Under the pieces are notes generated by a model, which did no database searches, was not told the DNA's origin, and saw only the letters and a program-made list of their open reading frames with translations. Of a DNA stretch of 39,258 bases, positions 429 to 39,258 are shown one piece after another. Within the stretch, counting starts at the first letter, position 1; each line of letters starts with the position of its first letter. The translations under genes were made by a program, and so were the position numbers. This stretch comes from a virus. The stretch covers positions 1 through 39,258 of IMG/VR virus record IMGVR_UViG_3300027985_001637; one strand, written 5' to 3'.

Positions 429-655
429 CATATTTTTTAGATTTTTTTTAACTTTTTTTCTTTTTATCAAATATTAGTTGAAAAATACAAGCATTTAAGT
501 TACTTATATTTTTGTTTGTAAAAAGGAAGCTTTATAAAGTTTAGTAAGTATTAGATTTAAAAAGCTTTTCTTTATACCAGAACCAGCTATAGGATACTAA
601 TATAGTTAAGAAAAATTTAAGAGCTTGGCTTTTTTAATTACTTATTAATTATATA

Positions 656-684
656 TTTACAAGGAGTTATTAATATACTAATAT
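656..684 (+). promoter_or_regulatory. Candidate late-operon promoter
   Basis: TTTACA at 656-661, a 17-base spacer and TAATAT at 679-684, ending 18 bases before the small-terminase ATG. The -10 box lies inside ATACTAATATA, which also occurs at 594-604. The short distance to the start would leave a very short leader that still includes AGGA at 691-694. A late-activator site cannot be excluded. Confidence 0.35.
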
Positions 685-702
685 AAAAATCAGGAATATA
701 TT

Positions 703-1230
703 ATGGATATTAATAAACAAGAAATATACCGTAAACTTTACGAGTTTGGCGGGCTGGACCTTAAAGAAATCGCTAAGCAGTACCAGCTAAATTTGTTTGA
801 GCTTGAGGCTTATGCAAATAATGAAGGCTGGGAAAAAGCTGAACAACCTGTATTGGCTGATGCTGATAGTGTCAATGAATTTTATTCATTGCAAAGACGT
901 TGGTTGTCTGTAGAAACTGCTAAGAGAGCTGTGACTACTTGGGTTAACTTAGTACAGATTGAGGATGGTCTGCTTAAGAGTTTACAAGCTCGTATTGAGC
1001 ATCTTGAGCAGAACCCTGATGCTGACTTTGATGGCTCCGTTACAGCAAGGCTCGTTAAAAGTTTTGAACGATTGTATAAAGTACGACAAATATACGAGTC
1101 TGCTAATACAATTCCTACTCTTGCTGATAAAGATTTACGGAGTCTTTTAAAAGAGTTCAAGAGCTTAACTCCTGAAGAAATAGAAAATCAGTTGAAGCTA
1201 AGAGGCATTCCTATGCCTACAGACTTATAG
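703..1230 (+). CDS. Terminase small subunit (probable)
   Basis: A 175-residue protein at the head of the late operon, two genes before the large terminase. It should recognise phage DNA and load the large subunit for packaging. The N-terminus (about residues 1-45: LYEFGGLDLKEIAKQYQLN, then ELEAYANNEGW) reads as a helix-turn-helix. The middle (about 60-130) is helical and charged, as in the oligomerisation region of small terminases. The start is supported by AGGA nine bases upstream. The call rests on position, size and the HTH; the primary sequence is not diagnostic. The protein differs from the Nu1 and P22 gp3 types as far as I can see. Confidence 0.65.
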   Translation: MDINKQEIYRKLYEFGGLDLKEIAKQYQLNLFELEAYANNEGWEKAEQPVLADADSVNEFYSLQRRWLSVETAKRAVTTWVNLVQIEDGLLKSLQARIEHLEQNPDADFDGSVTARLVKSFERLYKVRQIYESANTIPTLADKDLRSLLKEFKSLTPEEIENQLKLRGIPMPTDL

Positions 1231-20916: not shown

Positions 20917-23051
20917 GATATTTTTATCCAAACATTTTTAATGACTATATACTTTTCGCCGTACAGTGTAGCTCAGCTGATGGAGCTAAAGTTGACCCAA
21001 CAGCATATAGTCTTGCTGTGTATGAAATAGATGGTTCTGTCAGTACAATTGCTGGAACTGCTATAACTGGGAGTCCCTTTACTCCGGCTCAGCTTGAAGC
21101 CAAAACAGGCTTATGGGCTGTAAAAATTGCTAAAACTGCATTCACTGTCGACAAACAGTATTTATTTATATGGGAAATGACAGTTGATGGAGTAAGTGCT
21201 GCAAAGCAGGAAATCTGGTGTGCTGTTAACACAACCAGCTTTATGACAGATACTACTGGTTTATCAACTTTCGACCCAGCATCTGACTCAGTGATTGTTG
21301 ATTTTACTGGTGTAGCTATGCAAACTGATATAGCAGATAGTGAGGATACTCTTCTTACAGCAATATCGAATGCAACCAAGGGCTTAAGCACTTTTGATCC
21401 TGTAACAGATACTGTTATAGCTGACCTTACAGGTGTAGCTATGCAAGCTGACCTTCAAGGCATAGCTATGCAAACTGACCTTGAAGGCATAGCTATGCAG
21501 GCTGACCTTATAGGTGTAGCTATGCAAACTGATATAGCAGATAGTGAGGATACTCTTCTTACAGCAATATCGAATGCAACCAAGGGCTTAAGCACTTTTG
21601 ATCCTGTAACAGATACTGTTATAGCTGACCTTACAGGTGTAGCTATGCAGGCTGACCTTGAAGGCGTAGCTATGCAGGCTGACCTTATAGGTGTAGCTAT
21701 GCAAACTGATATTCAAGCACACCAAGAGTATATGGTTACAACACTTTCTGGTCTTCAGACGACAGTCAGCAATATCTCCAATGTTGTCAGGCTAAATGTC
21801 GCAATTCCAAATGAGGTGCCAATACCCGAGACTGGATATGTAGTAGTCAGATGTGATATTGCCTTGCATGATAGCGATGGTAATATGGAAGACCCCGACG
21901 ATAACTACTTAACAATAAACTTTTTTGATATATACGAAAATAGCATGACTGATATGCTATTTCAAGATTCTACTGCAACAACCCCCCTGGCCAGTGTTCC
22001 CTCAGGTGATTTAATTGGACGTCTGTACGCAGTTCGTCAAGAGACTGGGCTTTATACTTTGTATATAAAAGTTGTTTCTGAAGTAAGTCCAAAACAGCTT
22101 ATTATGAAGTTCAGATGGCAAGAAAATGGCACCATGCTTTATGAATTTAAGTCAATACAGCTTGTAGATGTGCCTTCACTTAGTGACATCCAAACAGGTC
22201 TTTTAGCAATTAAAGAACGTACTGACAACTTGCCTGACGATCCTGCAGGAATTACAGATATTGAGTCTGCTCTTGTTGTTGCGACATCAGGCCTATCAGT
22301 ATTTGATTCTACTGTTAACCTTGTTAGAGTAGGCTATATTCGTGACGAAGCTGTTACGTCTACTCAGGATTTTATGCCCTCACAGGGAAGCAGTGTTGAC
22401 TTATCGCCTGTTTTAGATAGACTACCTGTGAATACACCTGACTTACTTGTTAACTTAGATATGCCTATAAGTGATATTGCTGAAGATATAGAAGCCTTAG
22501 GAGCTATGATTCAAGGCAAAGGTATTTACCTTGTGACTTTTTCTGTTGTCGACTCTGAAGGTTCTTCAGTACCTAACTTTGTTATTTCTATCAGACAAGC
22601 TGGAACGAGTACTGACCTTATTCCACGACTATCTTCTGGCATCGATGGCTTAGCTTATGCTTCTTTAGAGGCTGGGAGCTATTATGTACAGGCTTGGCGG
22701 GCTGGCTGGGGTGTTGTAGCTCAGGAAATAACAGTGCTTGCAGACACAACTATTGTACTAACAGCTACACCTGCTTCTGGAGTAGCACCAACACCAGTTA
22801 ATCCATATCATTGTTTATGCTACATATCACTCGCTGAAAACACAAAAGCCAGTGGGAGAATTATAAATCTGCCATATGCTCATGATGGAATATATCAAAA
22901 TGGCGATGAAGTAGTGGGAGTTTGGGACGAAGAGTCAAGCTTAATGACTTGGGAAATGCCTTGGGGCGCTACTGTACAGTTTTCAATACCGACCTACCAG
23001 ATTTTCGTTGTTCAAGAAATTCCTACTACAGACTCTTTCAAAATTATGTAG
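20913..23051 (+). CDS. Tail fibre / receptor-binding protein with internal repeats
   Basis: A 712-residue terminal gene of the late operon. The GTG at 20913 overlaps the preceding stop. Residues 1-110 form a beta sandwich typical of fibre attachment domains (DYILFAVQCSSADGAKVDP). Residues about 115-275 hold repeats of GLSTFDPVTDTV and a 9-residue G-V/I-A-M-Q-A/T-D-L/I-x unit. These are likely a trimeric coiled or beta-helical shaft. Residues about 280-400 contain another beta domain. Residues 540-630 are an Ig-like/CarboxypepD_reg-type domain (VTFSVVDSEGSSVPNFVIS, then ASLEAGSYYVQAWRAG). The tip (about 650-712) has aromatic-rich sequence. It probably makes the side or central fibre. Confidence 0.75.
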   Translation: MRYFYPNIFNDYILFAVQCSSADGAKVDPTAYSLAVYEIDGSVSTIAGTAITGSPFTPAQLEAKTGLWAVKIAKTAFTVDKQYLFIWEMTVDGVSAAKQEIWCAVNTTSFMTDTTGLSTFDPASDSVIVDFTGVAMQTDIADSEDTLLTAISNATKGLSTFDPVTDTVIADLTGVAMQADLQGIAMQTDLEGIAMQADLIGVAMQTDIADSEDTLLTAISNATKGLSTFDPVTDTVIADLTGVAMQADLEGVAMQADLIGVAMQTDIQAHQEYMVTTLSGLQTTVSNISNVVRLNVAIPNEVPIPETGYVVVRCDIALHDSDGNMEDPDDNYLTINFFDIYENSMTDMLFQDSTATTPLASVPSGDLIGRLYAVRQETGLYTLYIKVVSEVSPKQLIMKFRWQENGTMLYEFKSIQLVDVPSLSDIQTGLLAIKERTDNLPDDPAGITDIESALVVATSGLSVFDSTVNLVRVGYIRDEAVTSTQDFMPSQGSSVDLSPVLDRLPVNTPDLLVNLDMPISDIAEDIEALGAMIQGKGIYLVTFSVVDSEGSSVPNFVISIRQAGTSTDLIPRLSSGIDGLAYASLEAGSYYVQAWRAGWGVVAQEITVLADTTIVLTATPASGVAPTPVNPYHCLCYISLAENTKASGRIINLPYAHDGIYQNGDEVVGVWDEESSLMTWEMPWGATVQFSIPTYQIFVVQEIPTTDSFKIM
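21309..21649 (+). repeat. 137-bp direct repeat in the fibre gene
   Basis: Bases 21309-21445 and 21513-21649 are identical over 137 bp, at a spacing of 204 bp (68 codons, in frame). The intervening part and flanks contain shorter 27-bp units coding for the 9-residue G-x-A-M-Q-x-D-x-x motif. Perfect identity implies a recent duplication or ongoing gene conversion. Confidence 0.95.
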
Positions 23052-23098: not shown

Positions 23099-23554
23099 TC
23101 AATTATAATGGATTATTTTTACTCCAGCACTCACAAACATCTGACAGGCTATTTCCATTGACTCTGCCCAGGATGATTTAGAGCTTTCAATCTGGGGAGC
23201 AATCACAGTTTGAACATTTGTCTGTAGCATGAGTGCGGCACATTGAGCGCACGGGAAACCCCCATAAACATAAAAGTCTAAAGGGAGCTCTAGGTACTTT
23301 CTATCCAACCGTAGAAGTGCATTGGCTTCAGCATGTACTGTTTTCATTCGCTTAACATCAACTGTTTCAAACTTGTCAACCAAACGTCTCGAAAAGCCAT
23401 TATAGCCCATTGACAGTATATGCTTATTATGTACTATAATAGCTCCCACCTTTCGGTCTTCGTCTTTACTCCAGGAAGCTATTCCTTTTGCCATGGCGAA
23501 AAACCGCCGGTCCCAAAGTGATGCTGAGCTACTCCGGGTTACTAAGTCAGTCAT
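23099..23554 (-). CDS. dCMP deaminase
   Basis: A 151-residue zinc deaminase converting dCMP to dUMP for thymidylate synthesis. The signature is H74-A-E76 (VHAEANALLRLD) and P101-C102-A-Q-C105 (FPCAQCAALML), with G-Y-N-G-F nearby (MGYNGFSRRL), as in ComEB/T4 CD-type dCMP deaminases. It is the last gene of the early minus-strand module and overlaps the helicase gene by eight bases. It supplies dUMP to ThyX encoded upstream. Length is typical. Confidence 0.92.
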   Translation of the reverse strand: MTDLVTRSSSASLWDRRFFAMAKGIASWSKDEDRKVGAIIVHNKHILSMGYNGFSRRLVDKFETVDVKRMKTVHAEANALLRLDRKYLELPLDFYVYGGFPCAQCAALMLQTNVQTVIAPQIESSKSSWAESMEIACQMFVSAGVKIIHYN

Positions 23555-24953
23555 TTTCGTCCTCTTTCTTTAATGCTTGTTTTAGGTAGTCTAAAAGCTT
23601 TTGCTGTGTTATGTTTTTAACATTTAAAGCTTTTATTATAGTCTCGTCAATTGTTTTTTCAAGTATTAAATGAATAATTTGTACTGTTTTTGTCTGTCCT
23701 GGGCGATGTAGTCGTCTGTTAAACTGCAAATAAATTCCTAAATCCCAAGTTAAGCCATACCATACGGCAATGCACCCACCAGTCTGAAGATTTGTACCGT
23801 GAGATATTGAAGCTGGGTGGCATAGTAAAATAGGTACTAAGCCTTTGTTCCAATTTTGAATTATCTGCTGAGCTTTTATTGCTGATACTCCACCGGCTAT
23901 AACCTCAGCAGACGGAAAAGCTTTTTTAAGTACAGAGAGCTCATACTTAAACTGTATGGCACAAAGTATAGGTTGATTAACTTCTTCGACGAGCTCTTTA
24001 AAAGCCTGTAGCTTAATCTGATGTATAGGCTCAGCTTTTTGTTCTGGGGGCTTGCCTGGCTCTATAGACTCATAGTATATAAAACCTTGTATAAATTGAC
24101 GTAACTTACTATTAAGTGCCCCAGTATTTACAGCAGAACACTCAACTTGACTGTCAAGTGTAAGACAAAAATCCCGTTTTAGCTTAGCATAAAGTTCTTT
24201 TAGCTCAGCAGTAAGTTGAAGTTTTCTATATTTATATTCTATAGGTGGACGCTCAATATAGTCGTCAGCATCTAAACGAAATGTGTATGGAGCTATTATT
24301 TTATATATTCTTTTTTCACTTTCTTCATTTCGTAGCTTATAAGAATATTTTAAATAGCTATCTGCAATAAAGTATGTATTTCTATAAGCTCCATAAGATT
24401 TAAAAGACTTATGAAGCTTACCTTCCAGCAGAAAATAATACTGAGACCACAAGTCGAGTAAACCATTGGGTGCTGGAGTGCCACTTAAAATAGCCCTATA
24501 ACCACTAAAAATAGGTAATAAAGCATGCAAGTATTTCCAACGTTTTGCTTGAGGGCTTTTTATATAAGTCCCTTCGTCGACAATACAGTTTTCAAAAGGA
24601 AAAGGCCTGCCCTCTTTTTGAAAACTTATTAACTCTTTATATAAAAAAGGGATAGCATCGAAATTTAATAAGTAAATATCAGCTGGCTTTCTTAAATTCT
24701 TTGCTTTGTCTACCCCATGAATAATTTCATAAGACAACTCTTGACTCCACTTTTCTCGTTCTTCTGGCCAAGTAGTATAAAGAGGCTTTATAGGAGCTAT
24801 TACAAGAGTTCCACCCTGCATATGTCGCATAGCTGATAATGCTATAGCTGTTTTTCCCATAGCCATATCTACAGCAAAATATACACGTTTCTTAGCTAAA
24901 AAGAACTCAACACCTCGTTCTTGATACTTTCTCAGCTTGTACTCTGTTGTCAT
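23547..24953 (-). CDS. SNF2-family DEAD-like helicase
   Basis: A 468-residue SF2 ATPase of the phage SNF2 type. Motif I is MAMGKTA (GKT at 33-35), motif II is VDEGTY (D126, E127), motif III is LSGTPAPNGL (about 160), and the C-terminal half ends with NRRLHRPGQTKTVQIIH (motif VI). Such proteins recur beside VRR-NUC and PolA genes in phages, probably as DNA translocases in replication or recombination. It overlaps the nuclease gene by four bases. The DEGT in motif II replaces the usual DEAH; this variant is common in phage homologues. Confidence 0.9.
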   Translation of the reverse strand: MTTEYKLRKYQERGVEFFLAKKRVYFAVDMAMGKTAIALSAMRHMQGGTLVIAPIKPLYTTWPEEREKWSQELSYEIIHGVDKAKNLRKPADIYLLNFDAIPFLYKELISFQKEGRPFPFENCIVDEGTYIKSPQAKRWKYLHALLPIFSGYRAILSGTPAPNGLLDLWSQYYFLLEGKLHKSFKSYGAYRNTYFIADSYLKYSYKLRNEESEKRIYKIIAPYTFRLDADDYIERPPIEYKYRKLQLTAELKELYAKLKRDFCLTLDSQVECSAVNTGALNSKLRQFIQGFIYYESIEPGKPPEQKAEPIHQIKLQAFKELVEEVNQPILCAIQFKYELSVLKKAFPSAEVIAGGVSAIKAQQIIQNWNKGLVPILLCHPASISHGTNLQTGGCIAVWYGLTWDLGIYLQFNRRLHRPGQTKTVQIIHLILEKTIDETIIKALNVKNITQQKLLDYLKQALKKEDEND

Positions 24954-25324
24954 AGTTTTGCCAACTCACTAAGAATTTGTTTAACCCGTTCTATAAACGA
25001 GATAATATCATCATAGGACTTAACAACATATACAAAGCATCCAAAATTACTAAGCTTCAAACACTCTTTAGCTTGTGCCGTTGTTAAAGACTTTTTAGGA
25101 GCTTTGCACTCAACATAAAAATGAACTGGAGTACACTTGTCTCTAACTTTAACAGTGAATATACAAAGTCTGTCAGGTACAGCTCTATGACCAGGGGATG
25201 AAAACTTATAGCAAAGACCACCCATAGCTTTAACTATCCTAACAAGTTTCTGCTCTATGTCCTCTTCAGAAATAGCTGAAACATCAGCCAATTTGATAAC
25301 TGGGCCTTTTATACCACTTGACAT
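24950..25324 (-). CDS. VRR-NUC domain nuclease
   Basis: A 124-residue stand-alone VRR-NUC (PD-(D/E)XK) nuclease. The active-site pattern is SPGHRAVPDRL (D51), YVECKAPKKSL (E72, K74) and the following Q of the SLTTAQ segment; an early Glu (about E21/E24) begins the fold. Phage and FAN1 relatives cleave branched or flap DNA. It overlaps the SNF2 gene by four bases, a pairing seen often, so they probably work together on replication intermediates. The length equals that of other stand-alone members. Confidence 0.88.
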   Translation of the reverse strand: MSSGIKGPVIKLADVSAISEEDIEQKLVRIVKAMGGLCYKFSSPGHRAVPDRLCIFTVKVRDKCTPVHFYVECKAPKKSLTTAQAKECLKLSNFGCFVYVVKSYDDIISFIERVKQILSELAKL

Positions 25325-25331
25325 TTATACA

Positions 25332-25565
25332 CTACCTTTCTACTGTGTTAAAGTTAGTGTCTTCAGCACATTTTTTAAACACTTTTGTATCATAAGCTAT
25401 ACCAGCAAGAGTTCTTATTCGCTGGCGAATCCGGCTAATTATATGAGCACGTCTTTTGTTTGACATTTCATATACAAGTAACTCTTTGCAAAACAGCAAA
25501 CTAACTGTGTCTCTAAGAGGCTTTTGAAGTGTATGCCAGCCTCTCATGATTTCAGTAATATCCAT
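25332..25565 (-). CDS. Small helical protein, unknown
   Basis: A 77-residue basic protein between VRR-NUC and PolA. Its start has AGGAG eight bases upstream (TATAGGAGATAAATA before ATG). It is mostly helical, with RRAHIISRIRQRIRTL in the middle and many Arg/Lys residues, so it could bind nucleic acid. I recognise no family. It is seven bases from the nuclease start and preceded by a stem-loop at 25605-25652. Confidence 0.6.
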   Translation of the reverse strand: MDITEIMRGWHTLQKPLRDTVSLLFCKELLVYEMSNKRRAHIISRIRQRIRTLAGIAYDTKVFKKCAEDTNFNTVER

Positions 25566-25604
25566 TTATTTATCTCCTATACTTGTTTTATAAAAGTAAT
25601 AATT

Positions 25605-25652
25605 AAGCTCTACAAGAGCACTGGCTATAACTTACAAACTCTTGCAGAGCTT
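25605..25652 (-). terminator. Stem-loop after the polymerase gene
   Basis: Arms AAGCTCTACAAGAG (25605-25618) and CTCTTGCAGAGCTT (25639-25652) pair over 14 bp with a G-U, with a 20-base loop. It begins four bases after the polA stop on the minus strand. There is no U tract; it may end or process the transcript. Confidence 0.55.
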
Positions 25653-25655
25653 GGC

Positions 25656-27650
25656 TCAGTCTTTTTTATACCTCTTGGCTATATAGCCATCTGCTTTGAG
25701 TGGAAGATCTCGATACCAGTCTTTCTTGCAACACATGGCTTTATTAAAATCAGCCAGGGCATCATCATAAAGGTCTGACTCATTTACTAAAACACCAGCT
25801 TCATCGTGAACTGAGATAATGAGTTGGTACTGGGGAAATGTCTTTTTTATGTTCAGTTTTCCGTTACCGAGAATGTCACGAGCCGTGGCTTGTACTATGT
25901 TCTCAGTGGCGAGTCCAGGAGAAATCTCAGTAAACTTCATCGAGTTTGTTTTTGAGTCATAACCAAAATACTCAACAGTTGAACCAAAACGACCATTCAC
26001 TAAACGAGGCTTCGCATACATTAAAGCTCTACCAGAGGGCAGGGTTAAGCGAAGCCAGGACATATTATTATGGTCTTTGACAACTTTAAAAGAACAACTG
26101 TTAGCCTCAAATGCTGTACCCGGGTACACTACTGCAGACTTTACAGCTCTATGATAGTTATCCCAGGTTTTAACAACTAAGTTATACTTCTCACGATAAG
26201 CTCCAACATACTGTTGTGCCTGCTCAAGAGTAAGTACAACACCATAGCTTTTTGAAGACTCTATAAACCGAGAAGCCCCCATCTGATAGCCACAACCCAG
26301 AACAAGCATCTTTCCAATCTGGTACTCGAAGCTTTTTTTCTGTATATCTGAGCTCTTACAATGAAAAACATGCGAAGCCATATCAGAGTAGACACATAGC
26401 CCTTTTTCAAACAACTTGAGTGTCTCGAAATCACCACTCAAAAAAGCCAGCACTCTGTTTTCGATAGATGTGTAGTCAGAAACCATCAGAAGCTTGCCAG
26501 CAGGAGCACAAATCATAGGCCTAATCAGAGCTTTTGCGATCTGCATAGGTTTATCTATGTGGTCTCCTGCAATGAACTTCTTAATATACTCTTCAGGATT
26601 GTCCACTTTAGCCCGGGGAAGGTTATGATACTGAAACCCTTGACCACCCCACCTACCAGTGCCTGCTCTATGATGATTTAGGTTCCCCTGGACATACCCG
26701 TTGTTTTCCATGTTAGCCAGAGTTATAAACTTCTTCGTAGAAGACAAACCAGTTAACTGACGTATCGTGAGAACATCATAAACAGCTTCGTCAATAAGAA
26801 CAGAACCATTATCATGCTGTTCAAGAACTCTATTGACTGTTTCAGCTCGAAGATCAGATAACTCCAAGCCTTTTGATTCACAGAATTGCCGAATTTTTTG
26901 AATCTGTCCGGGTGTTTCAACTACACCACCAGTCAATTCAGGCAAAAATTCAAGCATTGATTGTGCATATGTACCAAGATAACGAATAATGCTTCTTACA
27001 GCTTTAACGTCTATAGGTACTCCAATGTTGTTCATTTCATATGTCACACACCACAACTCATGTTCAAGTGCTGTAAAATGATCGGCAGGAAGCTTACTAA
27101 TAATCTCAGCAAGCACTTCAACGTCTATCCGACAATACTCGTATAAGTCAAGAAAGTCTTGTTCAGTTGGTATAAGACCTGGCTTACAGCACTTGTTAAT
27201 AAGCTGTTTGCCTATACTCATTTTCTCAGTTTGACATTCCAGAGCTCGAGCTACAATAGCCAGTGCTTGGGGGTACCTAAAACGAGCAGTAAGAGACCTA
27301 ACATCTATATACTGCTCAGGAGCTATATTTACAAACTTAGCACCTTGCTCAAACTCAATGTCACATTTAAGCCCCAAAATATTCCAAGCCAGCAAATCAA
27401 ATTCGCCGAAACCGTAGACCAAGGTCTTAGGGTCTTTGAGAACTTTGGTTATTTCTTCTGGCCAGGGGAGAGAAGGGTACCAAACAGAAGCACTATCCAT
27501 AGCCAATGAATGATCTGTGTCACTCTTACGAGCTTCTATCTTATAAGCGAAACACAATAGCTTGGCTGACTTATGCTCCATGTACTTTCTGGCTCCAACA
27601 TCTTTTATGTTGAGCTCAGAATAGGTTTCGAAGTCAATAATAAGTCGCAT
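25656..27650 (-). CDS. Family A DNA polymerase with 3'-5' exonuclease
   Basis: A 664-residue replicative polymerase of the phage PolA type. The N-terminal DnaQ-fold proofreading domain starts at once (LIIDFETYSE). The polymerase half has RHRAGTGRW-like HHRAGTGRWGGQGFQYHN, motif A SDYTSIENRVLAFLSG, motif B KMLVLGCGYQMG and motif C ISVHDEAGVL. There is no 5'-3' exonuclease. I start it at ATG 27650, with GAGGGAG eight bases upstream; a GTG two codons earlier has too short a spacing. A 20-bp palindrome lies 84 bases upstream. Confidence 0.95.
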   Translation of the reverse strand: MRLIIDFETYSELNIKDVGARKYMEHKSAKLLCFAYKIEARKSDTDHSLAMDSASVWYPSLPWPEEITKVLKDPKTLVYGFGEFDLLAWNILGLKCDIEFEQGAKFVNIAPEQYIDVRSLTARFRYPQALAIVARALECQTEKMSIGKQLINKCCKPGLIPTEQDFLDLYEYCRIDVEVLAEIISKLPADHFTALEHELWCVTYEMNNIGVPIDVKAVRSIIRYLGTYAQSMLEFLPELTGGVVETPGQIQKIRQFCESKGLELSDLRAETVNRVLEQHDNGSVLIDEAVYDVLTIRQLTGLSSTKKFITLANMENNGYVQGNLNHHRAGTGRWGGQGFQYHNLPRAKVDNPEEYIKKFIAGDHIDKPMQIAKALIRPMICAPAGKLLMVSDYTSIENRVLAFLSGDFETLKLFEKGLCVYSDMASHVFHCKSSDIQKKSFEYQIGKMLVLGCGYQMGASRFIESSKSYGVVLTLEQAQQYVGAYREKYNLVVKTWDNYHRAVKSAVVYPGTAFEANSCSFKVVKDHNNMSWLRLTLPSGRALMYAKPRLVNGRFGSTVEYFGYDSKTNSMKFTEISPGLATENIVQATARDILGNGKLNIKKTFPQYQLIISVHDEAGVLVNESDLYDDALADFNKAMCCKKDWYRDLPLKADGYIAKRYKKD

Positions 27651-27733
27651 AGGCACACTCCCTCTTAGTGTAAATAAATGATTTTAGGCATTCTAATTCA
27701 GCTCTATTCTTATTCTATCCTAAGTCTAATGGG

Positions 27734-27753
27734 TTATCCTAAATTTAGGATAA
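27734..27753. promoter_or_regulatory. 20-bp perfect palindrome upstream of polA (candidate operator)
   Basis: TTATCCTAAATTTAGGATAA is a perfect palindrome without a spacer; a half-site TATCCTAA repeats at 27716-27723. It lies 84-103 bases before the polymerase start and downstream of the DUF2815 gene, well suited to bind a dimeric regulator. No other gene is in this 180-base gap. Confidence 0.55.
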
Positions 27754-27789
27754 AATAAGAACAGACGAGCTATTATAAGCTCTAAATTA

Positions 27790-27824
27790 GCACTATCTAT
27801 ATCATTATAGACTATAGATAGTGC
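27790..27824 (-). terminator. Stem-loop after the DUF2815 gene
   Basis: Arms GCACTATCTATA (27790-27801) and TATAGATAGTGC (27813-27824) are a perfect 12-bp match with an 11-base loop, six bases after the DUF2815 stop on the minus strand. On that strand it is followed by TAATTTAGAG, only weakly U-rich. Confidence 0.6.
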
Positions 27825-27830
27825 CTGTTG

Positions 27831-28427
27831 TTATGCCAGGGAGTCGTCTTCGTTATCTGCCGACTCAGATTCAGCCTCGTTCAGGGGGAGAGCAAATGAA
27901 GCAAAGGCTGTAAGTGCATTCATACGTCCATCAAGCCTTTCACCATCTGCAACAAACATGACATTGTTCAAGCCCCAGGCAACACCCTTGTTGGACGTAT
28001 TGTTGTATGGATAGGCATTGACATCAGCATGAACGATGCACCCTGAGTAAATTGTACCAGGCTCTGTAATAGGTCTGCAGTGAGCGTCTACGAGGCCGGG
28101 TTTACGAGGCTCAGGATTGTTCTTCGAAGCCTTAGACGAAGCATTGATAAAAAAGTGGCCCACATACTCTTCGCCTTCCCGTTTTCCAGACTCGAGTTCA
28201 GCATCGCCATCCCGCAAAGCTTTGTTCTCGAAGTGGGGCACTTTTCCACCCCAGAATCTCTCTTTGCCTTTGGAAATTGCTGAAGCAATTTCAGCCTCGA
28301 TTGCTTTCACCAAAGCCTTGTCTGTCTTCGGGATCAAGAATGTGGCTGAATAGCCGAGCCGGCCTGAAGGGTCTTCTTTGGGCACATCGAGTACAGCAAA
28401 CGAAATTCGTACATTTGTGATAATCAT
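27831..28427 (-). CDS. DUF2815 family protein, probable ssDNA-binding protein
   Basis: A 198-residue protein with the DUF2815 pattern: start MIITNVRISFAVLDVPKEDP, GRLGYSATFLIPKTD, FINASSKASKNNPEPRKPGL, then EPGTIYSGCIVHADVNAYPY, NNTSNKGVAWGLNNVMFVAD and an acidic C-terminus (ESESADNEDDS). Family members are thought to be single-stranded DNA-binding proteins because of OB-like strands and the acidic tail, and their constant place next to PolA and DUF2800. Here it lies directly upstream of polA. The family call is strong; the role is an inference from the family. Confidence 0.88.
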   Translation of the reverse strand: MIITNVRISFAVLDVPKEDPSGRLGYSATFLIPKTDKALVKAIEAEIASAISKGKERFWGGKVPHFENKALRDGDAELESGKREGEEYVGHFFINASSKASKNNPEPRKPGLVDAHCRPITEPGTIYSGCIVHADVNAYPYNNTSNKGVAWGLNNVMFVADGERLDGRMNALTAFASFALPLNEAESESADNEDDSLA

Positions 28428-28455
28428 AATACTTGCCTTTCATGTTATGTGTTTT

Positions 28456-28481
28456 GTGACTACTTATAGCTAAGTAGTCAC
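28456..28481 (-). terminator. Stem-loop between dUTPase-like and DUF2815 genes
   Basis: GTGACTACTTA (28456-28466) / TAAGTAGTCAC (28471-28481) is a perfect 11-bp stem with a 4-base loop, TAGC on the plus strand. It lies in the 93-base gap and has AAAACAC, not U, on its minus-strand 3' side. Confidence 0.55.
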
Positions 28482-28520
28482 TGTTATAAATTGCTATAGC
28501 TGGTACTGTCTCATAAAAAG

Positions 28521-28928
28521 TCAGCTTTTGTGAGCTTTGTGATCTCCTGACTTCAAACGATCTATATTGAGTCGTATCTTACCCGATATAAGCTCACCGA
28601 AAAGCTCGTCGATAGGCTCTTCAGGGGACTGTACAAATACTTCGTCAGAAGCTTCAGTTGTTACTCTTTCATCTGCTGTAAGTGCGACATAAATATCAAT
28701 CGCAAAAATAACAACATCAGCAAGTTCGTCAAGTGCTCTATTCTTGTTATTGACCTGAGTCTCTCTTGACTTCCAGGGCTTCCAGGGGAGCTCTTGCAAG
28801 AGCTCGGCGAGCTCTACATGTGTAGCAAGAACTAAGTCTCTGACATACTTAATCGGGTCGTCAGGGGGGTACTGGCCAATGAGTGCTTGCTGTTCTCGAG
28901 CAAGCTGAACAAGTTCAGAAACTTTCAT
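28521..28928 (-). CDS. MazG/dUTPase-like all-alpha nucleotide pyrophosphatase
   Basis: A 135-residue all-alpha NTP pyrophosphohydrolase of the dimeric dUTPase/MazG superfamily. The metal motif is E39-L-A-E42 (THVELAELLQELPWKPWK) and E68-L-A-D71 (ALDELADVVIFAID). The W-K-P-W-K segment is typical of phage dUTPase_2-like members. It should remove dUTP, leaving dUMP for ThyX. I chose ATG 28928, with GGAG five bases upstream; a longer frame to 29117 would overlap thyX. A degenerate copy of this start region lies just upstream. Confidence 0.78.
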   Translation of the reverse strand: MKVSELVQLAREQQALIGQYPPDDPIKYVRDLVLATHVELAELLQELPWKPWKSRETQVNNKNRALDELADVVIFAIDIYVALTADERVTTEASDEVFVQSPEEPIDELFGELISGKIRLNIDRLKSGDHKAHKS

Positions 28929-28995
28929 ATCAGCTCCAGTCTTTTTTATAATATGTTTCTCTTGGGTAAAATGAGCAAAATCAGAAACTTTTATA

Positions 28996-29736
28996 TCAGC
29001 TCCAGCCTTTTCTACGACACACTTCAGCCTGCATTCTGCCCTGTCTGCAGGGGCCATAAGCACACTCTGGCTGAGCATACTTCGAGTTAAAAAGCTGGGG
29101 GAACCACTGGCTTGCAATAGTTAGCCAAGCTTTAGCGAAGCTGATCATTTCAGCAACATTTCGTTCACACAGTCTCTGCCGAAAAAAGAGCATCATATTC
29201 CGAGCATCTGCAGTAAGCATGAGATTCTTCCGGGAAGCCATAGGCAAAACCATTCTTGCTTCTTCTCTCGGCACATCCAGAGCAATCAAACGTTTATACG
29301 AGTCCTGAGCATGTTCAAAAGCCGATTTGTAAATCTCAAAAGCAGTTTCTTGCTTAAGATGCTGAGCTCCTGAACTACCGAAAGAATTTCCGGCATACCC
29401 GGGATGAACCAAAAAATCGTAGTCACTGTAATCTTGATAATGCTGGGAGCCTGCAGTAGGCTTAAAAGTTCGCTGACGAAGTATCTGGTCAAGAAGAGCT
29501 CTGCTTATGTTATGCACTTCTATCGTCATAGTAAGATGCTCAAGCACCGATGTATGACTTGCAGATACAAGATAGTCAATGACATGCTGTTTCAGGGTGC
29601 CATTTGCTTCGTAGTACAGTGTATCGTGCATACAAGTATTGAGAGCTTTCTGTACTACCAGCTTAGGTCTGCTGGTTTGCGAAACGACACTTATATCTAC
29701 AGCATCGTACGAGATAATACTAACGGAGTCCGTCAT
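28996..29736 (-). CDS. thyX: Flavin-dependent thymidylate synthase ThyX
   Basis: A 246-residue FAD-dependent thymidylate synthase making dTMP from dUMP. Family features are HTSVLEHLTM (61-70), the signature R87-Q-R89-x7-S97 in place of the usual R-H-R-x7-S, then REEARMVLPMASRKNLMLTA, ARNMMLFFRQRLCERNVAEM and the C-terminal ECAYGPCRQG. The His of the signature is Gln. It overlaps the upstream gene by 17 bases and is followed by the dUTPase-like gene, and dCMP deaminase lies further down, giving a complete dCMP-dUMP-dTMP route. The start is ATG 29736 with AGTGAGAAA upstream. Confidence 0.9.
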   Translation of the reverse strand: MTDSVSIISYDAVDISVVSQTSRPKLVVQKALNTCMHDTLYYEANGTLKQHVIDYLVSASHTSVLEHLTMTIEVHNISRALLDQILRQRTFKPTAGSQHYQDYSDYDFLVHPGYAGNSFGSSGAQHLKQETAFEIYKSAFEHAQDSYKRLIALDVPREEARMVLPMASRKNLMLTADARNMMLFFRQRLCERNVAEMISFAKAWLTIASQWFPQLFNSKYAQPECAYGPCRQGRMQAEVCRRKGWS

Positions 29737-30412
29737 ACTTTCTCACTTTCATGTAGAGTTTGTCTTGCTTGTTTTTGGCATAAGTATCTCTTAGTAAACA
29801 ACTTTGTTGCTGAAGAAAATAGTGTAAAAACATAGCATTTGTTGCCAGGTGATCAACATGAAGCAGGCCTGAATCTTTATCGAGCTGACTTAAAACTTCG
29901 TGATTCATGTAGGCTCGACGACTCTTATTGAGATGTCTCTGTAAAGCTGAAAAATAATACATAGGGTCTACTTCTCGCCAAGAGTAGGCCCCGTACTTAA
30001 TAGCCCCGTGAGTTAAACAGCAAGCTAAACTGTCTTCAAAATCAGGGTCTATCAGCTCATACATAACTTTACTTTTGAAAGACTTCGGTGTAAAGTCAAT
30101 ATTTGAATTCCCCCCTGGTCCTGGTGATTCTATAGTAGATGCTGAGAAAGCGTCTACATTTGTCATATAGGGCTCTTCACTGACAAAATCAAAGTCATTA
30201 AGCTTTACATCAGACTTCTTTTCAATATAGGGCTCAGCTAGCTTGTGAAGCTTATCTGCTTCACAAGCTATTATGAAAGCAGGATCACCCTGTTGCATAT
30301 ATTCATTCAGAAGATTGTGATAGACACTACGAGCTTTTATAACTCGCTGGGCTCTTGTCTTAAGCCTAAAAATAGATCGCACTCGGCGAAAAAACTTATT
30401 TATTTTTTTCAT
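29720..30412 (-). CDS. dATP/dGTP diphosphohydrolase N-terminal-like (DUF5664) protein
   Basis: A 230-residue protein. Residues about 112-190 match the dATP/dGTP diphosphohydrolase N-terminal (DUF5664) pattern: MYELIDPDFEDSLACCLTHG, AIKYGAYSWREV, FSALQRHLNKSRRAYMN, then DKDSGLLHVDHLATNAMFL. It resembles HD-like metal sites in that group and may hydrolyse purine dNTPs. The first 110 residues, basic then acidic and Ser/Gly-rich, are not part of that domain and may bind DNA or a partner. It overlaps thyX by 17 bases. Its substrate cannot be read from sequence. Confidence 0.7.
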   Translation of the reverse strand: MKKINKFFRRVRSIFRLKTRAQRVIKARSVYHNLLNEYMQQGDPAFIIACEADKLHKLAEPYIEKKSDVKLNDFDFVSEEPYMTNVDAFSASTIESPGPGGNSNIDFTPKSFKSKVMYELIDPDFEDSLACCLTHGAIKYGAYSWREVDPMYYFSALQRHLNKSRRAYMNHEVLSQLDKDSGLLHVDHLATNAMFLHYFLQQQSCLLRDTYAKNKQDKLYMKVRKYDGLR

Positions 30413-31327: not shown

Positions 31328-31370
31328 GTTAGCCTCTCTTTGTAGTTAAAGTATTCTGTTTTCAAAAGTG

Positions 31371-31420
31371 ATTATATGTATGTCATATTTTAAAAGCTTT
31401 GTAAACACTTTTTTATTTTT
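31371..31420 (-). promoter_or_regulatory. Promoter-like repeat, copy A
   Basis: On the minus strand: AAAAAAGTGTTTACA (TTTACA at 31405-31400), 17 bases, then CATACA and TATAAT (31376-31371). It is about 80% identical over some 45 bp to the copy at 31483-31530, 112 bases upstream. It is the nearer of two elements in front of the acidic-tail winged-helix gene. Confidence 0.5.
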
Positions 31421-31482
31421 TTTTTTTTACTTTTTATCAACTTTTATTCTATAACTGTAAAGCTAATTCAAAGCACATTGTG

Positions 31483-31530
31483 ATTTTATTTATGTCACAT
31501 ATTAAAAACTTTGTAAACACTTTTTTTCTA
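31483..31530 (-). promoter_or_regulatory. Promoter-like repeat, copy B
   Basis: On the minus strand: AAAAAAAGTGTTTACA (TTTACA at 31517-31512), 17 bases ending TATGTGA, then CATAAA and TAAAAT at the same offset as in copy A. The TATGTGA before the -10 position also occurs in the element upstream of the tandem-HTH gene. Either copy may serve as promoter or as a regulator site. Confidence 0.45.
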
Positions 31531-31536
31531 CTTTTT

Positions 31537-31580
31537 GCTTTTTCTCTCTCTTTTATAAAAGAAGAGAGAGAGAAAAAAGC
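31537..31580 (-). terminator. Terminator-like hairpin after the exonuclease gene
   Basis: An AG/CT-rich inverted repeat, GCTTTTTCTCTCTC (31537-31550) with GAGAGAGAGAAAAAAGC (31564-31580), whose loop is built around TTTTATAAAA, lies 27 bases after the exonuclease stop on the minus strand. It sits between that stop and the promoter copies of the next gene, where a terminator is expected. The gap 31328-31606 has no gene. Confidence 0.6.
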
Positions 31581-31606
31581 TTACATCTATTTCTGCTAAG
31601 CTGGAA

Positions 31607-34438: not shown

Positions 34439-36943
34439 TTAGCCCCTAAGCTCGATGTGCAACTCAACATCTGTGGCTTTAACTAACGGGGGTAATAGAA
34501 AAAACTTCTGCCTTTTCCGGGTAACATAGCCTTTAAAAACTCTCAAATTTTTTGTAAATTCTTTCGATGCCAGCTTAGTGAATGGTGTTTTTGCTTTATG
34601 CAAAGTCCCTGTATAAACTCCACAGTATTCTTCTAAAGCATATTTAACCTCAGCCACGGTGTGTTTAGCATTGCCTACAAGATTTACAAGCTTAGCTAAT
34701 TCACTCTGAGTCCAAAGCCGAGGCATAGCTTGTGTTTCAGCTATATAAAAGCTATACATATCAGCTTGACCTATGTCACCAGTAAACCAGCCAATACTAC
34801 TTAAATAATCAGACCAATTGATAGACTTAGGCTCAGCATACCCGAAAAGCTGGCATAGATGCTGAGATACACCTCGTTCACAATCTTTAAAATCTCGGTT
34901 AGTCTGCTCAATCAGCTCTATGATATGGTCATTCAAACTCCAAGCCTTCTGAATAGGCCTTTTAGGGTGTTTCTTTTTATACTCTTGCAGATGAAAAAGT
35001 ATTTCAGCATATAACTGTTGTCTATCCATCTGTTTAAGAGCTTCAGAATCGCACATATCGACAGGGATATACCCAAACTTTCTTGAACCTGTGGCTGGTG
35101 TAAATAAATCCAGTTTATTAGTTGTGCCGATAATGAGTGCTGTTCTAAGCCGGCTTCGCATATACGAATCCCATAAGTCCCGAAATGTTGCAGTATGTGT
35201 ATCAATACTCTCTTTAAGCTTATTTATATGCAGAGGATTGAATAACTCTTCACATTCATCAACTCGTACCACAGCTTTCGTAACCAAGAGTCGTCGCCAA
35301 TCATCACTCCCAGATTTGACCAGGGATGCAGGAGCTTCAGCTCTATAGTTTTCGAGCTCTTTAGGTATGAGAAAGTCGACCCAAGTTGACTTTCTTGTAT
35401 GCTGAGTGCCTGCAAGAACAAGCATGAGGTTTATTTTAGGCTCTTCTTGTTCAAAGAAATGTATACCGACTAACGAGTAAAGAGCCATTCTGATAAGGTC
35501 TTTATAGTGAGGTCTATCATCTGATGTTTTCAGAGACTCAATAACTGAGTGAAATCGCTCAACACCATCCCAGGGCTTAGACTTAATCCACCGCTTGAAG
35601 GCATTCTCGTCTTTAGCCATACTGATAAGATAATCAAGAAGTTGAGCGGTATTCTTCTGAGAAATACTGGTTTTATACCGATTCTGCAAAAAAGCCTGAA
35701 GTACAGGTACAAGAGGCTTGTACGGATAGACCTGACTAAAACCTTCAGGCCTAAAACTTTTATAGTACTCATTTGCACAAAACCAGCGGGTAACTGTTTC
35801 TTCAGGGCCTTTAAAACAGTATCCACCACCCATTGAGTCAAAATATAACTCAAGCTCTTCATAATCCATCAAAGCTTTGACATTTCTCAGAGACTGAACA
35901 TCAGGCACAAAAACCTTATTGCCTTTCGACCCTCGTTCAAGCAGGTCAGGAAAATTAAACTGGCAGTATTTAGCGATATGAATAAGAGTTTTCATCGAAA
36001 CTATACTCTTATCGAGCTTCAGCATCTTAGATTTAGTTGATGCTAAAAGCTTGTTAAACTTGTCTTGTACATCGTCTTCACTGACAAAACCAGCCTTATC
36101 TTTTTTAGACCAATTGAGAAAACACTGATATACAGTTTCAGTATCATCACTATCAATCATTGATAGCATAATGCTTTGGTGAGCACAGGCTTGCCCTACA
36201 AGCACCCAATAATCATAATTCGTCTCAACATTGAGAAACCGTAGAGCACTACAAGCTTCTCGTATTTTAGCATTTATCGTAGGCGGAATAACTTCGAAAA
36301 TATCTTTGACTTTCTCGATACTAACAATTTTGCTAAGCCCGCTAAACTTAGCCAGTGTAACTGAACTACCCTGAGTCAGGCTATTTTCTGTTACAGGGCC
36401 AGCATTACCAGCCAAAGACGGTACGAGCTTAGCTAAAGTCTCAAAAGAAATATCACTAATTTTGTCAGTTGACGAAAAAAGCTTGTCTGTAATGGTGAGA
36501 AAACAGCTTTTATACCGTATATCACCACTAAACAAATCGCCAGGCTTAGTGGCACACTGTGTTAAAGCTATTTCATCAAGCTTCTTGGCACACTCAGGAG
36601 TCGCCCTATATATAAGATGTACACCATGGCCTGACGGGGAATAGTGGGCATGTGTAGGGTTTTCAGCTAAAAAGAACTTAACTGAGGCAGGAATTTCTTT
36701 CGTCGTGTTGGCTTTCTTGCCTGTAGGATCAACGTCTATATCAATACCAACATAGCCATTTCCGTTAGGCGGAAAGACAATGCCATACCATGGTGATCCA
36801 GCTATCAAGTTTTTTGCATTTTGTCTTGCAATTTCATATGAGAGAGGCTTCCCTTTGCCCAAACCTGTGGCAGGAGCTTTGTTTTTCTTGTTGGGTGTGG
36901 CCTCACAATGTGTCCAATAAACCTCTGCTTTCAACCTATCCAT
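34439..36943 (-). CDS. Primase-helicase with VapE-like ATPase domain
   Basis: An 834-residue replication protein. Residues about 1-150 form an AEP/PrimPol-like primase: YVGIDIDVDPTG (acidic D-x-D pair), then HYSPSGHGVHLIY and the KSCFLTITD segment. A linker region about 230-380 may be PriCT-like. Residues about 480-660 match the VapE (virulence-associated E) P-loop domain: LAGTQHTRKST near 515 in place of the classical GxxxxGKS, VRVDECEELF near 560, the TATFRDLWDS and LIIGTTNKLDLFTPATGSRK block. It would unwind and prime at the phage origin. It lies 39 bases downstream of the tandem-HTH gene. Confidence 0.85.
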   Translation of the reverse strand: MDRLKAEVYWTHCEATPNKKNKAPATGLGKGKPLSYEIARQNAKNLIAGSPWYGIVFPPNGNGYVGIDIDVDPTGKKANTTKEIPASVKFFLAENPTHAHYSPSGHGVHLIYRATPECAKKLDEIALTQCATKPGDLFSGDIRYKSCFLTITDKLFSSTDKISDISFETLAKLVPSLAGNAGPVTENSLTQGSSVTLAKFSGLSKIVSIEKVKDIFEVIPPTINAKIREACSALRFLNVETNYDYWVLVGQACAHQSIMLSMIDSDDTETVYQCFLNWSKKDKAGFVSEDDVQDKFNKLLASTKSKMLKLDKSIVSMKTLIHIAKYCQFNFPDLLERGSKGNKVFVPDVQSLRNVKALMDYEELELYFDSMGGGYCFKGPEETVTRWFCANEYYKSFRPEGFSQVYPYKPLVPVLQAFLQNRYKTSISQKNTAQLLDYLISMAKDENAFKRWIKSKPWDGVERFHSVIESLKTSDDRPHYKDLIRMALYSLVGIHFFEQEEPKINLMLVLAGTQHTRKSTWVDFLIPKELENYRAEAPASLVKSGSDDWRRLLVTKAVVRVDECEELFNPLHINKLKESIDTHTATFRDLWDSYMRSRLRTALIIGTTNKLDLFTPATGSRKFGYIPVDMCDSEALKQMDRQQLYAEILFHLQEYKKKHPKRPIQKAWSLNDHIIELIEQTNRDFKDCERGVSQHLCQLFGYAEPKSINWSDYLSSIGWFTGDIGQADMYSFYIAETQAMPRLWTQSELAKLVNLVGNAKHTVAEVKYALEEYCGVYTGTLHKAKTPFTKLASKEFTKNLRVFKGYVTRKRQKFFLLPPLVKATDVELHIELRG

Positions 36944-36982: not shown

Positions 36983-37480
36983 CTACTCAGCATTATGCTC
37001 AGTCACAAAAACACCCTCAGTCAAGAGTATTTCGCCTATCGTCATTTGGCTATTCTGAGCAACACCCTGACTTTTTAACTGTGAAAACCGATACTGAATG
37101 GCTGACTGAGAACATGAAAACAGCTTAGCCACTTGCTTCTGGGGTATATCGTAGATATAGCATAGACGTAAAAAAGCTTTTTGATACAGAGTAAAAGAAC
37201 GTTTATTACTGCATCGCTTGACAACTTTCTTTTTATCTATATCATACTTGACCAGGAGTTCAGGGAGACTCATTTTTTTATCCTGGTCCACACCAGACCT
37301 TTTCAGCTTTTTGTACCGACGTCCTATGGCTTGAGGGGTTACTCCAAAAAACTTTCCAGCATCTACTTGCGAAACACCATACTGATACAAGACCGTTAAA
37401 GCTTGTTCCTGCTCAGCATTCAGCCGGATAAAGACCTGATTATTAGCTGGGCATACCAATGTTTGCTTCACTCCGCTCAT
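36983..37480 (-). CDS. Tandem helix-turn-helix protein (candidate origin-binding or early regulator)
   Basis: A 165-residue basic protein made of two copies of one HTH unit. Residues 25-76 (ALTVLYQYGVSQVDAGKFFG, then AIGRRYKKLKRSGV) align with 100-152 (FLRLCYIYDIPQKQVAKLFS, then AIQYRFSQLKSQGV); both end in M-x(3)-E-x-L. I prefer ATG 37480 with AAAAGGA six bases upstream; an ATG at 37516 has a weaker site. It is the first early gene, behind a good promoter and beside the iteron region. It could recognise paired GGTGAAR sites and act as initiator or regulator. The family is not recognised beyond the HTH. Confidence 0.7.
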   Translation of the reverse strand: MSGVKQTLVCPANNQVFIRLNAEQEQALTVLYQYGVSQVDAGKFFGVTPQAIGRRYKKLKRSGVDQDKKMSLPELLVKYDIDKKKVVKRCSNKRSFTLYQKAFLRLCYIYDIPQKQVAKLFSCSQSAIQYRFSQLKSQGVAQNSQMTIGEILLTEGVFVTEHNAE

Positions 37481-37535
37481 ATTTTGTCCTTTTGGTATAG
37501 AAATTCTTACTTTCATTCATCTTAATTATACACAT

Positions 37536-37564
37536 CTTATATCACATAAAGTTCTTAATGTAAA
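37536..37564 (-). promoter_or_regulatory. Early operon promoter
   Basis: TTTACA (37564-37559), 17 bases containing TTTATGTGA, then TATAAG (37541-37536); both hexamers match sigma-70 at five of six positions. It lies upstream of the tandem-HTH gene, the first of the minus-strand replication genes. TATGTGA just before the -10 is shared with the element at 31483. It is the best promoter in the window. Confidence 0.65.
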
Positions 37565-37844
37565 CAAGAAAAATTCTTAATAAAATAAAATAGTTAGAAG
37601 GCTTAAATATTTATAATAAAATAAAGCATTTACGAGGAAAGAACTATTTACAGTGAAATAAGGATCTTATGTAAGTAACTTATTTTGTTTAGAATATTTG
37701 TGGGGCTTAAGTGCCTAACTTTATTAGTTAAAACACCTTCAATTTATAACAGGTATGCAGTAAGTAATAAAAAATTGAGACAAAAAGTCATAACTAACTA
37801 AATTTACTATGAATATGTGGTTTAATTAAATTCAGACCCCGGAT

Positions 37845-38262
37845 TTCACCGGTATGCTTTTCGTTATGTCGTCCATATCTGTATTTATATTAAATAGTTA
37901 AGCCCCAAAGTGGTGAAAAGAGGTGAAAAATAGGGGTGAAGTCTTTCACCCCTATTTTCTGTAATAATTTTAAAGTGTTACAGCGAAAAAGGGTGAAGGG
38001 GTGAAAAAATTTGCCTCTTCAGATTCATATATAAAAAAAAACATTTTTTTCCTAAAGTCAGTATAAAAAGTATACTCAATTTCACCCCTTTTATACATAA
38101 CTATATAATATTACTATATATTTCTATATATATTATTTCACTTTACTTTCACCGGTATAATTTAAGTTATAGAAAAAATTAGCTTAACTATTTAATATTA
38201 TTATAAATTAGGTTTTTGCAAAACGGTGAAAACAAGTAACCCTTTTTCACCCCTTCTTCACC
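37845..38262. repeat. GGTGAAR iteron cluster (candidate replication origin)
   Basis: Twelve copies of GGTGAAA/G lie within 420 bp: plus strand at 37913, 37923, 37936, 37992, 38000 and 38225; minus strand at 37845, 37945, 38080, 38147, 38245 and 38256. Most are GGGGTGAA, ACCGGTGAAA or close. Close pairs occur at spacings of 10, 13, 8 and 11 bases, and one inverted pair forms a hairpin. Between them (38030-38220) the DNA is nearly all A and T, suiting an unwinding element. Iterons plus AT-rich DNA beside an HTH gene and primase-helicase are the standard picture of an origin. Not proven from sequence. Confidence 0.7.
37928..37959. repeat. Perfect hairpin within the iteron cluster
   Basis: AAAATAGGGGTGAA (37928-37941) and TTCACCCCTATTTT (37946-37959) form a perfect 14-bp stem with a 4-base loop, GTCT, and join an inverted pair of iterons. 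On either strand the arm ends in a T-rich end, so it could also terminate transcripts. A folded strand could act as an initiation structure for the primase-helicase. Confidence 0.7.
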
Positions 38263-38550
38263 ACCTTTTAGCTGGGCTTAAAATTAAACCTTATTCCAGC
38301 CTATTTTCATCGACGAAGAAACACCTGGTCAAAATGACAGTAGTTCTCGTATTTTTAAATTAAGGAATCCAGTGGGTTTTAAAGGTAGGTTTTGTAAGAG
38401 TAGAACAGAGTAGGCTTTTAAATTTGATCCTAGGATCCACCATTAATACCTTATTCAATACTTTTTTTAAAGAGAGTAGGGTTACAAGGGCTAAGGGTTA
38501 CTGGGTTTTTTAGGCCCCTTAAACAGCGAGGTTCCATGTGAAGTGTTAAA

Positions 38551-38580
38551 AAGTAGAGCTTTAGTTCGCTAAAGCTCTAC
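38551..38580 (-). terminator. Intrinsic terminator of the repeat-linker gene
   Basis: A perfect 13-bp stem, AGTAGAGCTTTAG (38551-38563) / CTAAAGCTCTACT (38568-38580), with tetraloop TTCG on the plus strand (CGAA on the minus strand), followed on the minus strand by TTTTAAC. It lies 14 bases after the gene's stop and is the clearest rho-independent terminator in the window. Confidence 0.85.
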
Positions 38581-38594
38581 TCAAAATCTGTTAC

Positions 38595-39258
38595 TCAGTC
38601 AACCAGGCAGAATACTGTATCTTTACCGAGCCGAACAGATTCAATTACGAACTCGTCTCTTTTGAGATACATGATAATCGAGCTGACGTTCTTGTTCGAA
38701 ATGCCGATGTTCTTGGCAAGAGCACTCACAGTAATCGGGCCCCGGAGCAGGTATCGCAGAACTTCGTCTTTTCTCAAGCCTCTCCGGACAACTGTTGTGT
38801 CGTCATAAAGAAGCAGATCATTTTCAGGGGTCTCGCCAACGGTTTTCACTTTAAAAGCTGTGTTGTTGAGTTGGCCGTACTGAGAAATCAGCTTTTCAGC
38901 TTCTTTCAGCTTAGCCAGTCTCTTAGCCTGTTGGGACTCCGATCTCTCTCTGGTCAGAGTAATAGTTTTGGTAGTTTCTGCTATGCCGAATGGGCCATCT
39001 GAGCGACGACGATCTGTCTTATTCAGAATTACCAAGTAGCTCTCAGCACTCTCTTCTGTTGCGAACTGTTTGACACAGGAGCCGTTCTTATCGACTATGA
39101 CAAATACTTTTACAGTTCTTGTCATAGGGTCTGTGTCGGTATTCTCAGTGTCGGTATTCTCAGTGTCGGTATTCTCAGTGTCGGTATTCTCAGTGTCGGT
39201 ATTCTCAGTGTCGGTATTCTCAGTGTCGGTATTCTCAGTGTCGGTATTCTCAGTGTCG
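38595..39258 (-). CDS. TENTD-repeat linker protein, C-terminal part with winged helix
   Basis: This continues the frame that leaves the left edge. From the right end the pentapeptide TENTD repeats about eight times, then TDP leads into a folded part that can also start at ATG 39125 (MTRTVKVFVIVDKNGSCVKQ), 176 residues to the stop. A coiled middle (ERSESQQAKRLAKLKEAEKL) is followed by a winged helix (about the last 60 residues: LRKDEVLRYLLRGPITVSAL, then NIGISNKNVSSIIMYLKRDE and FVIESVRLGKDTVFCLV). The whole gene would encode at least 290 residues when the array is merged. Its role may be DNA binding in replication or regulation. It lies beside the non-coding origin region. An isolated start at 39125 has no Shine-Dalgarno site, which supports the fusion. 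Confidence 0.75.
   Translation of the reverse strand, partial: DTENTDTENTDTENTDTENTDTENTDTENTDTENTDTENTDTDPMTRTVKVFVIVDKNGSCVKQFATEESAESYLVILNKTDRRRSDGPFGIAETTKTITLTRERSESQQAKRLAKLKEAEKLISQYGQLNNTAFKVKTVGETPENDLLLYDDTTVVRRGLRKDEVLRYLLRGPITVSALAKNIGISNKNVSSIIMYLKRDEFVIESVRLGKDTVFCLVD
39133..39258. repeat. 15-bp tandem repeat array, right copy
   Basis: Eight full copies of GTGTCGGTATTCTCA plus GTGTCG fill the last 126 bases and are identical to bases 1-126. If the two ends are joined at this overlap, the merged array is 141 bp (9.4 copies) and the reading frame stays open on the minus strand. Joining the ends without removing the overlap would break the period after GTGTCG. Confidence 0.97.

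Follow-up and report, generated by a model that had tools for sequence, protein, structure and literature searches.

We report that the stretch at positions 37844-38262 of the window, by which we mean the complete 39,258-base record of an uncultured virus, with 126 bases common to its two ends, is very probably a phage replication origin. The repeat array found there brings together the core word of the P4 origin, a layout like that of PICI origins and a proposed initiator of the VapE type, in a phage that has its own structural genes. A first-pass annotation of this DNA had suggested an iteron origin with an unwinding element, and the suggestion is supported by a both-strand array that is unique in the window, a minimum of duplex stability inside it, a turn in GC skew, a primase-helicase of initiator type nearby and arrays beside homologous primases.

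The annotation had described twelve copies of GGTGAAR, half on each strand, in some 420 bp of non-coding DNA, with few expected elsewhere. An exact search bore this out: six words lie on the + strand and six on the - strand within 419 bp, in the order - + + + - + + - - + - - (starts at 37844, 37912, 37922, 37935, 37944, 37992, 38000, 38080, 38147, 38225, 38245 and 38256), and nine more are scattered over the other 38.8 kb (21 in total), giving about 29 per kb in the array vs 0.23 per kb outside. The end of the array was correctly placed at 38262, but its first word begins at 37844 and not at 37845. No other gap of the window holds a GGTGAAR cluster, as judged by exact search of the whole window. 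Dinucleotide shuffles of the whole window gave 9.65 +/- 2.8 words in total, with a largest value of 16, and the best hexamer in 200 shuffles of the non-coding gap that contains the array (37517-38594, 30% GC) reached at most nine copies, vs twelve of GGTGAA in the gap itself. Ranked by both-strand clustering among all hexamers of the window, GGTGAA came first. These are iteron-type repeats gathered in one non-coding stretch far above chance, and it is this density, unique in the window and beyond all shuffles, that argues first for an origin. The base after GGTGAA is A in nine words and G in three, never C. The close grouping originally described applies to some of the words, namely those of the left cluster (+ + + -, 37912-37950; start spacings 10, 13 and 10 bp), of a '++' pair 8 bp apart (37992-38006, + strand) and of the right cluster (+ - -, 38225-38262; 21 and 11 bp); the remaining words lie 47-81 bp from a neighbour.

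The '++' pair faces an AT-rich gap (38007-38079, 78% AT) that extends to the next '-' iteron. Nearest-neighbour energies place both the least stable 50-bp duplex of the whole window (starting at 38088) and its least stable 150-bp duplex, the probable unwinding element (38061-38210), inside the array, so that the AT-rich middle noted earlier is real, and easily melted DNA lies beside and between the repeats as in iteron origins. That the weakest duplex of the entire window should fall here is a further argument for an origin. The second least stable duplex of the window (588-740) precedes the small terminase gene, in a gap where no repeats were recognised. The perfect hairpin of the first description also exists: two face-to-face iterons form a 14-bp inverted repeat (37927-37958; arms 37927-37940 and 37945-37958, 4-nt loop) with a DNA folding z of -5.2, and its 22-bp core has no match in other viral contigs.

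The cumulative GC skew is highest near 23 kb and turns again at the end of the map where the array lies. An extremum at the array had been predicted, and the turn in this region may fit an origin there, but gene direction alone could give it. The genes on both sides of the array point away from it: packaging, head and tail genes occupy about 0.7 to 23 kb and are read rightward, and the replication and nucleotide genes, which start at about 37.5 kb, are read leftward as far as 23 kb; this divergence, together with the skew turn, is consistent with an origin at the array. The array does not, as had been thought, lie beside the first replication gene, since the gene of a protein with two HTH motifs (sigma70 region-4-like; 36983-37516, - strand), a candidate regulator or alternative binder, intervenes and the primase start is 0.9 kb off. 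The other flank carries the C-terminal part of a winged-HTH protein (38595-39125, - strand), whose gene spans the contig ends by way of a TENTD repeat. The 126-base terminal overlap (1-141 and 39133-39258) consists of 15-bp units repeated in tandem within a single gene; read across the joined ends, this gene encodes an N-terminal segment, then TENTD repeats and then the winged HTH, and the true copy number of the 15-bp repeat, hence the genome length, is uncertain. Two further repeats were seen in the window, a non-coding gap with AGAGAG/CTCTCT three times per strand, beyond shuffles (31328-31606), and a nearly perfect 204-bp tandem duplication built of 27-bp units in a gene of the tail region (21309-21703).

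Besides the primase, the early operon codes for a DUF2800 nuclease, an ssDNA-binding protein, a family-A polymerase, a VRR-NUC protein and an SNF2 helicase, and its part at 23099-30412 for ThyX, dUTPase, dCMP deaminase and a dGTP/dATP diphosphohydrolase-like protein. No DnaA-, RepA- or O-like initiator was found among the early proteins scanned, and this lack of a competitor also favours the origin reading with the primase-helicase as its proposed initiator (834 aa, 34439-36943, - strand; PrimPol-like N-terminus, PriCT_2, VapE/SF3 helicase and a probable winged-helix C-terminus). The sole PDB match of this protein by sequence is described as 'similar to D. nodosus vapE' (7pds, E 1.8e-5), and the best structural match of its AlphaFold2 model (four sequences, pLDDT 62) is the same entry, SaPI PriRep1 with dsDNA (Foldseek 1e-8, well above the next rows; Z 11.8, rmsd 7.0, 372 residues aligned), with residues 1-320 aligning at low Z with the NrS-1 primase-polymerase. 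On these sequence and structure matches to 7pds, the proposed initiator is of the PriRep/VapE self-loading helicase type, as in PICIs. The last 180 residues modelled alone gave helices and a hairpin (pLDDT about 61); Foldseek returned nothing significant for them (best E 1.4), and winged helices (Fur, MecI, PerR; Z 3-5.3) make up many of their low-Z matches. The C-terminus of P4 alpha (1ka8) was absent among the listed matches, which does not exclude it. This low-confidence model points to a likely C-terminal DNA-binding domain, probably a winged helix. In SaPI Rep it is the C-terminal domain that reads the origin iterons (PMC7581432), and the resemblance to PriRep1 counts in favour of an origin as well.

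The iteron had been thought to match none from a described phage. This was wrong, since the core GGTGAA is, letter for letter, the core of the P4 ori type 1 repeat. The P4 record (NC_001609) annotates 'ori type 1 repeats' in ori and crr; they read TGTTCACC, equal to GGTGAACA, with slight variants, occur in both orientations and start 7-11 bp apart within clusters. The window shares with them the core word, the two orientations, the close spacing in clusters and the AT-rich neighbourhood, and has a candidate for the single multifunctional primase-helicase that serves P4 as initiator (alpha). The two systems differ in that P4 ori words continue with CA, whereas those of the window continue with A or G, so that the full repeat GGTGAACA is not found among them; in that P4 splits its words between ori and crr; and in that alpha has the domain set zinc ribbon/Toprim, D5_N and Pox_D5, whereas the window protein has PriCT_2 and VapE with a PrimPol-like N-terminus. 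Alpha is thus linked to the window primase by layout and word, not by direct alignment. Because there are about 2,000 possible hexamers and the window's leading hexamer had been settled before P4, a candidate named ahead of the test, was inspected, an exact match to the P4 core by chance would be rare, and the shared core of an annotated origin repeat counts in favour of an origin here. Among papers retrieved for these words with 'iterons', none describes them, by title and abstract, as phage iterons.

A second comparison is offered by the PICI and SaPI islands. In EcCICFT073 of E. coli CFT073, eleven GGTAGA words on both strands lie directly 3' of the primase gene, and its ori and rep are reported to be both required for plasmid maintenance (PMC6092414), a parallel that favours an origin in the window. 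In PICI origins an AT-rich region is reported to have an iteron set on either side in every case (PMC6092414), and the window shows the same arrangement, with opposed sets around its AT-rich region, a similar number of hexamers (11-12) and a candidate initiator of the primase-helicase kind whose best structural match is PriRep1. The word is another one in EcCICFT073, and PICIs are satellites, whereas the window belongs to a phage that encodes capsid, terminase and tail proteins of its own. Position also differs and counts against the origin reading: PICI origins lie directly 3' of pri-rep, whereas the window array is upstream of the primase gene, with an HTH gene between.

Arrays of the same kind accompany homologous primases in tailed phages. 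The nearest VapE primases among annotated phages include those of Mica, PPpW-3, Arya and Murka. A scan of all hexamers put GGTGAC, one base off the window word, first in Burkholderia phage Mica (9 copies) and Enterobacter phage Arya (12), whose primases are homologous to that of the window at about 21-23% identity; neither PPpW-3 nor Murka has a GGTGA cluster within 5 kb of the primase. The Mica and Arya arrays differ from that of the window in that they sit 2-3 kb downstream of the primase gene, in non-coding gaps that adjoin lysis genes, and the records as shown carry no origin annotation at them. Scanning IMG/VR with a primase alignment added contigs L273 and L256 with GGTGAC arrays and L230 and L267 with GGGTA(G) arrays. 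A common skeleton runs through the window, Arya, L273, L256 and L230, in which a '++' pair, its words 8-10 bp apart, follows a gap of 42-60 bp and is separated by an AT-rich gap of 81-98 bp from a '-' word; the '++' pair of the window takes the same place in it as those of the other four. Measured start to start, the distances are 47/8/81 in the window, 42/10/90 in Arya, 53/10/89 in L273, 60/10/98 in L256 and 57/10/91 in L230, while Mica is a partial likeness with gaps of 50 and 89 bp and a single word in place of the pair. Permuting distances and orientations in the window alone produced the skeleton in 1% of trials (0.01), a value that applies to a rule seen after the fact and that tempers the argument. 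The shared skeleton may thus be taken as support, not proof, for a common origin class as defined here, and with the GGTGAC arrays it speaks for an origin in the window.

Both-strand non-coding arrays were found within 5 kb at 8 of 32 VapE loci, of which six are clearly iteron-like and two (L226 and L228) strongly one-sided, vs none of 65 polymerase-A control loci, which were centred on the locus and not on the primase; this contrast, too, favours an origin. Neither GGTGAA nor GGTGAC ever topped the hexamer ranking in polymerase-A relatives. A scan for triple GGTGAA words returned at least 120 stretches, many of which, L104 among them, had the look of repeats that are coding or confined to one strand, and among the matches listed only L105, L118, L198 and L128 are substantial both-strand clusters. 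IMG/VR contig L105 has eight GGTGAA words, four on each strand, that overlap the 3' end of a primase gene and extend beyond it; the gene differs in coding for PrimPol with a DUF3987 helicase, of another helicase family; having been found by searching for GGTGAA, it is not independent evidence. The clusters of viral contigs L118 (1581-1967), L198 (3177-3471) and L128 (5023-5154) were set aside, as no recognised primase or replication gene lies nearby. Both-strand arrays of other words, near primase genes of the DUF3987/PrimPol type, are likely unannotated origins: CAGACA (9 copies) in Moraxella phage Mcat11 (L306, 3557-3813), TATACA (21) in Dickeya phage Sucellus (L308, 22450-22900) and ATAGTA (8) in Acinetobacter phage D0 (L309, 14944-15400).

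Close relatives give a less uniform picture. The closest by replication genes (L223, record G001, 42.4 kb; 47% identity to the window in polA, 48% in SNF2 and 38% in the primase) has a rearranged operon with the primase in its middle, and no both-strand array like that of the window occurs in its 42 kb. The long gap upstream of the primase is kept in L224 (primase 40%) and in L225 and L226 (25%). The gap of L224 is rich in GTAAAC-like words and that of L225 in TAGTGA, which beat shuffles in a mismatch-tolerant test (0/60) and only marginally as exact hexamers; no word in the L226 gap was significant against shuffles, and a small gene with an HTH-like look and no Pfam match adjoins the primase there. 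Single-protein pattern scans with the primase (viral and genome contigs) and the DUF2800 protein (viral contigs) gave no close relatives, and terminase relatives had little in common beyond the terminase. The conservation expected by the first-pass annotation was therefore found in part: the layout recurs widely, the word in P4 and a one-letter variant in VapE phages, but G001 is without an array and L224 and L225 have other words. These relatives, with the L226 gap, count against the origin reading. Either the place of the array is partly conserved with a drifting word, or relatives of the L223-L226 type start replication elsewhere.

Might the words instead serve transcription, with the two-HTH or the winged-HTH protein using them as operators for the early operon and the hairpin as a terminator? 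HTH genes do lie on both flanks, L225 and L226 have a winged-HTH relative at the same place, and on the - strand the hairpin fits a weak intrinsic-terminator pattern. Yet the fit is not above chance in the scan, nor is anything else in the promoter and terminator scans, and the word forms no cluster in any other gap. Operator sets usually need fewer than the twelve both-strand copies that are spread here over 419 bp around the weakest duplex, and the distance between array and initiator gene varies among Mica, Arya and P4, the array of P4 being an annotated origin. We therefore regard transcriptional control as improbable. Still more improbable is that a ParB-like protein uses the words as a centromere-like partition site, or a small terminase protein as a packaging (pac) site: iteron-like repeats mark centromeres too, and once the ends are joined about 1.6 kb separates the array from the start of the small terminase gene, but there is no ParA or ParB among the proteins scanned (a subset of genes), TerS-bound pac sites are usually within or next to terS, and the Mica and Arya arrays adjoin lysis genes instead. 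As for an artefact of chance or composition, the gap is AT-rich and the word searches were post hoc, but no gap shuffle out of 200 reached the observed count and no hexamer of the window outranks GGTGAA, which leaves this explanation a negligible weight.

The chief alternative lies within the origin reading, and concerns what binds the words. The adjacent winged-HTH protein could do so and recruit the primase-helicase afterwards, much as RSF1010 has separate RepC and RepA proteins. Its gene, through the C-terminal domain, is kept beside the array locus in the window, L225 and L226 (41-43% identity) while the words vary, and the fold of the primase C-terminus is uncertain; but next to the L224 gap no winged-HTH homologue turned up, and in P4, PICI and SaPI-type elements the helicase itself is the origin binder (PMC4234260, PMC7581432). 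We consider this arrangement unlikely, though less so than the readings that deny an origin.

With the primase-helicase as the binder, initiation may be pictured as follows. The 834-aa protein would bind the GGTGAA words of both orientations, probably via its C-terminal winged helix, the weakness of that model being a point against the reading as a whole. Multimers on the two opposed iteron sets would melt the AT-rich DNA between and beside them and load as SF3/VapE helicase rings on both strands; the protein's own PrimPol domain would prime, and synthesis would pass to the phage family-A polymerase and ssDNA-binding protein. Divergent forks would leave the array in both directions, and thus both the leftward early and the rightward late genes would be co-directional with replication.

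In a wider view, we tentatively suggest, as a serious possibility that falls somewhat short of probable, that tailed phages with VapE primases share a hitherto undescribed origin class, built of opposed iteron sets around an AT-rich gap as in the PICI/P4 layout, in which the skeleton (42-60 / 8-10 / 81-98 bp) is fixed while the core word drifts slowly (GGTGAA, GGTGAC, GGGTAG, GGTAGA). If so, a layout that has been called exclusive to PICIs would be common in free phages, and word and C-terminal domain would co-evolve as a readable recognition code. Most phage origins are unmapped, and the core shared with P4 together with the skeleton may offer a route, by sequence alone, to the origins of uncultured VapE-primase phages.
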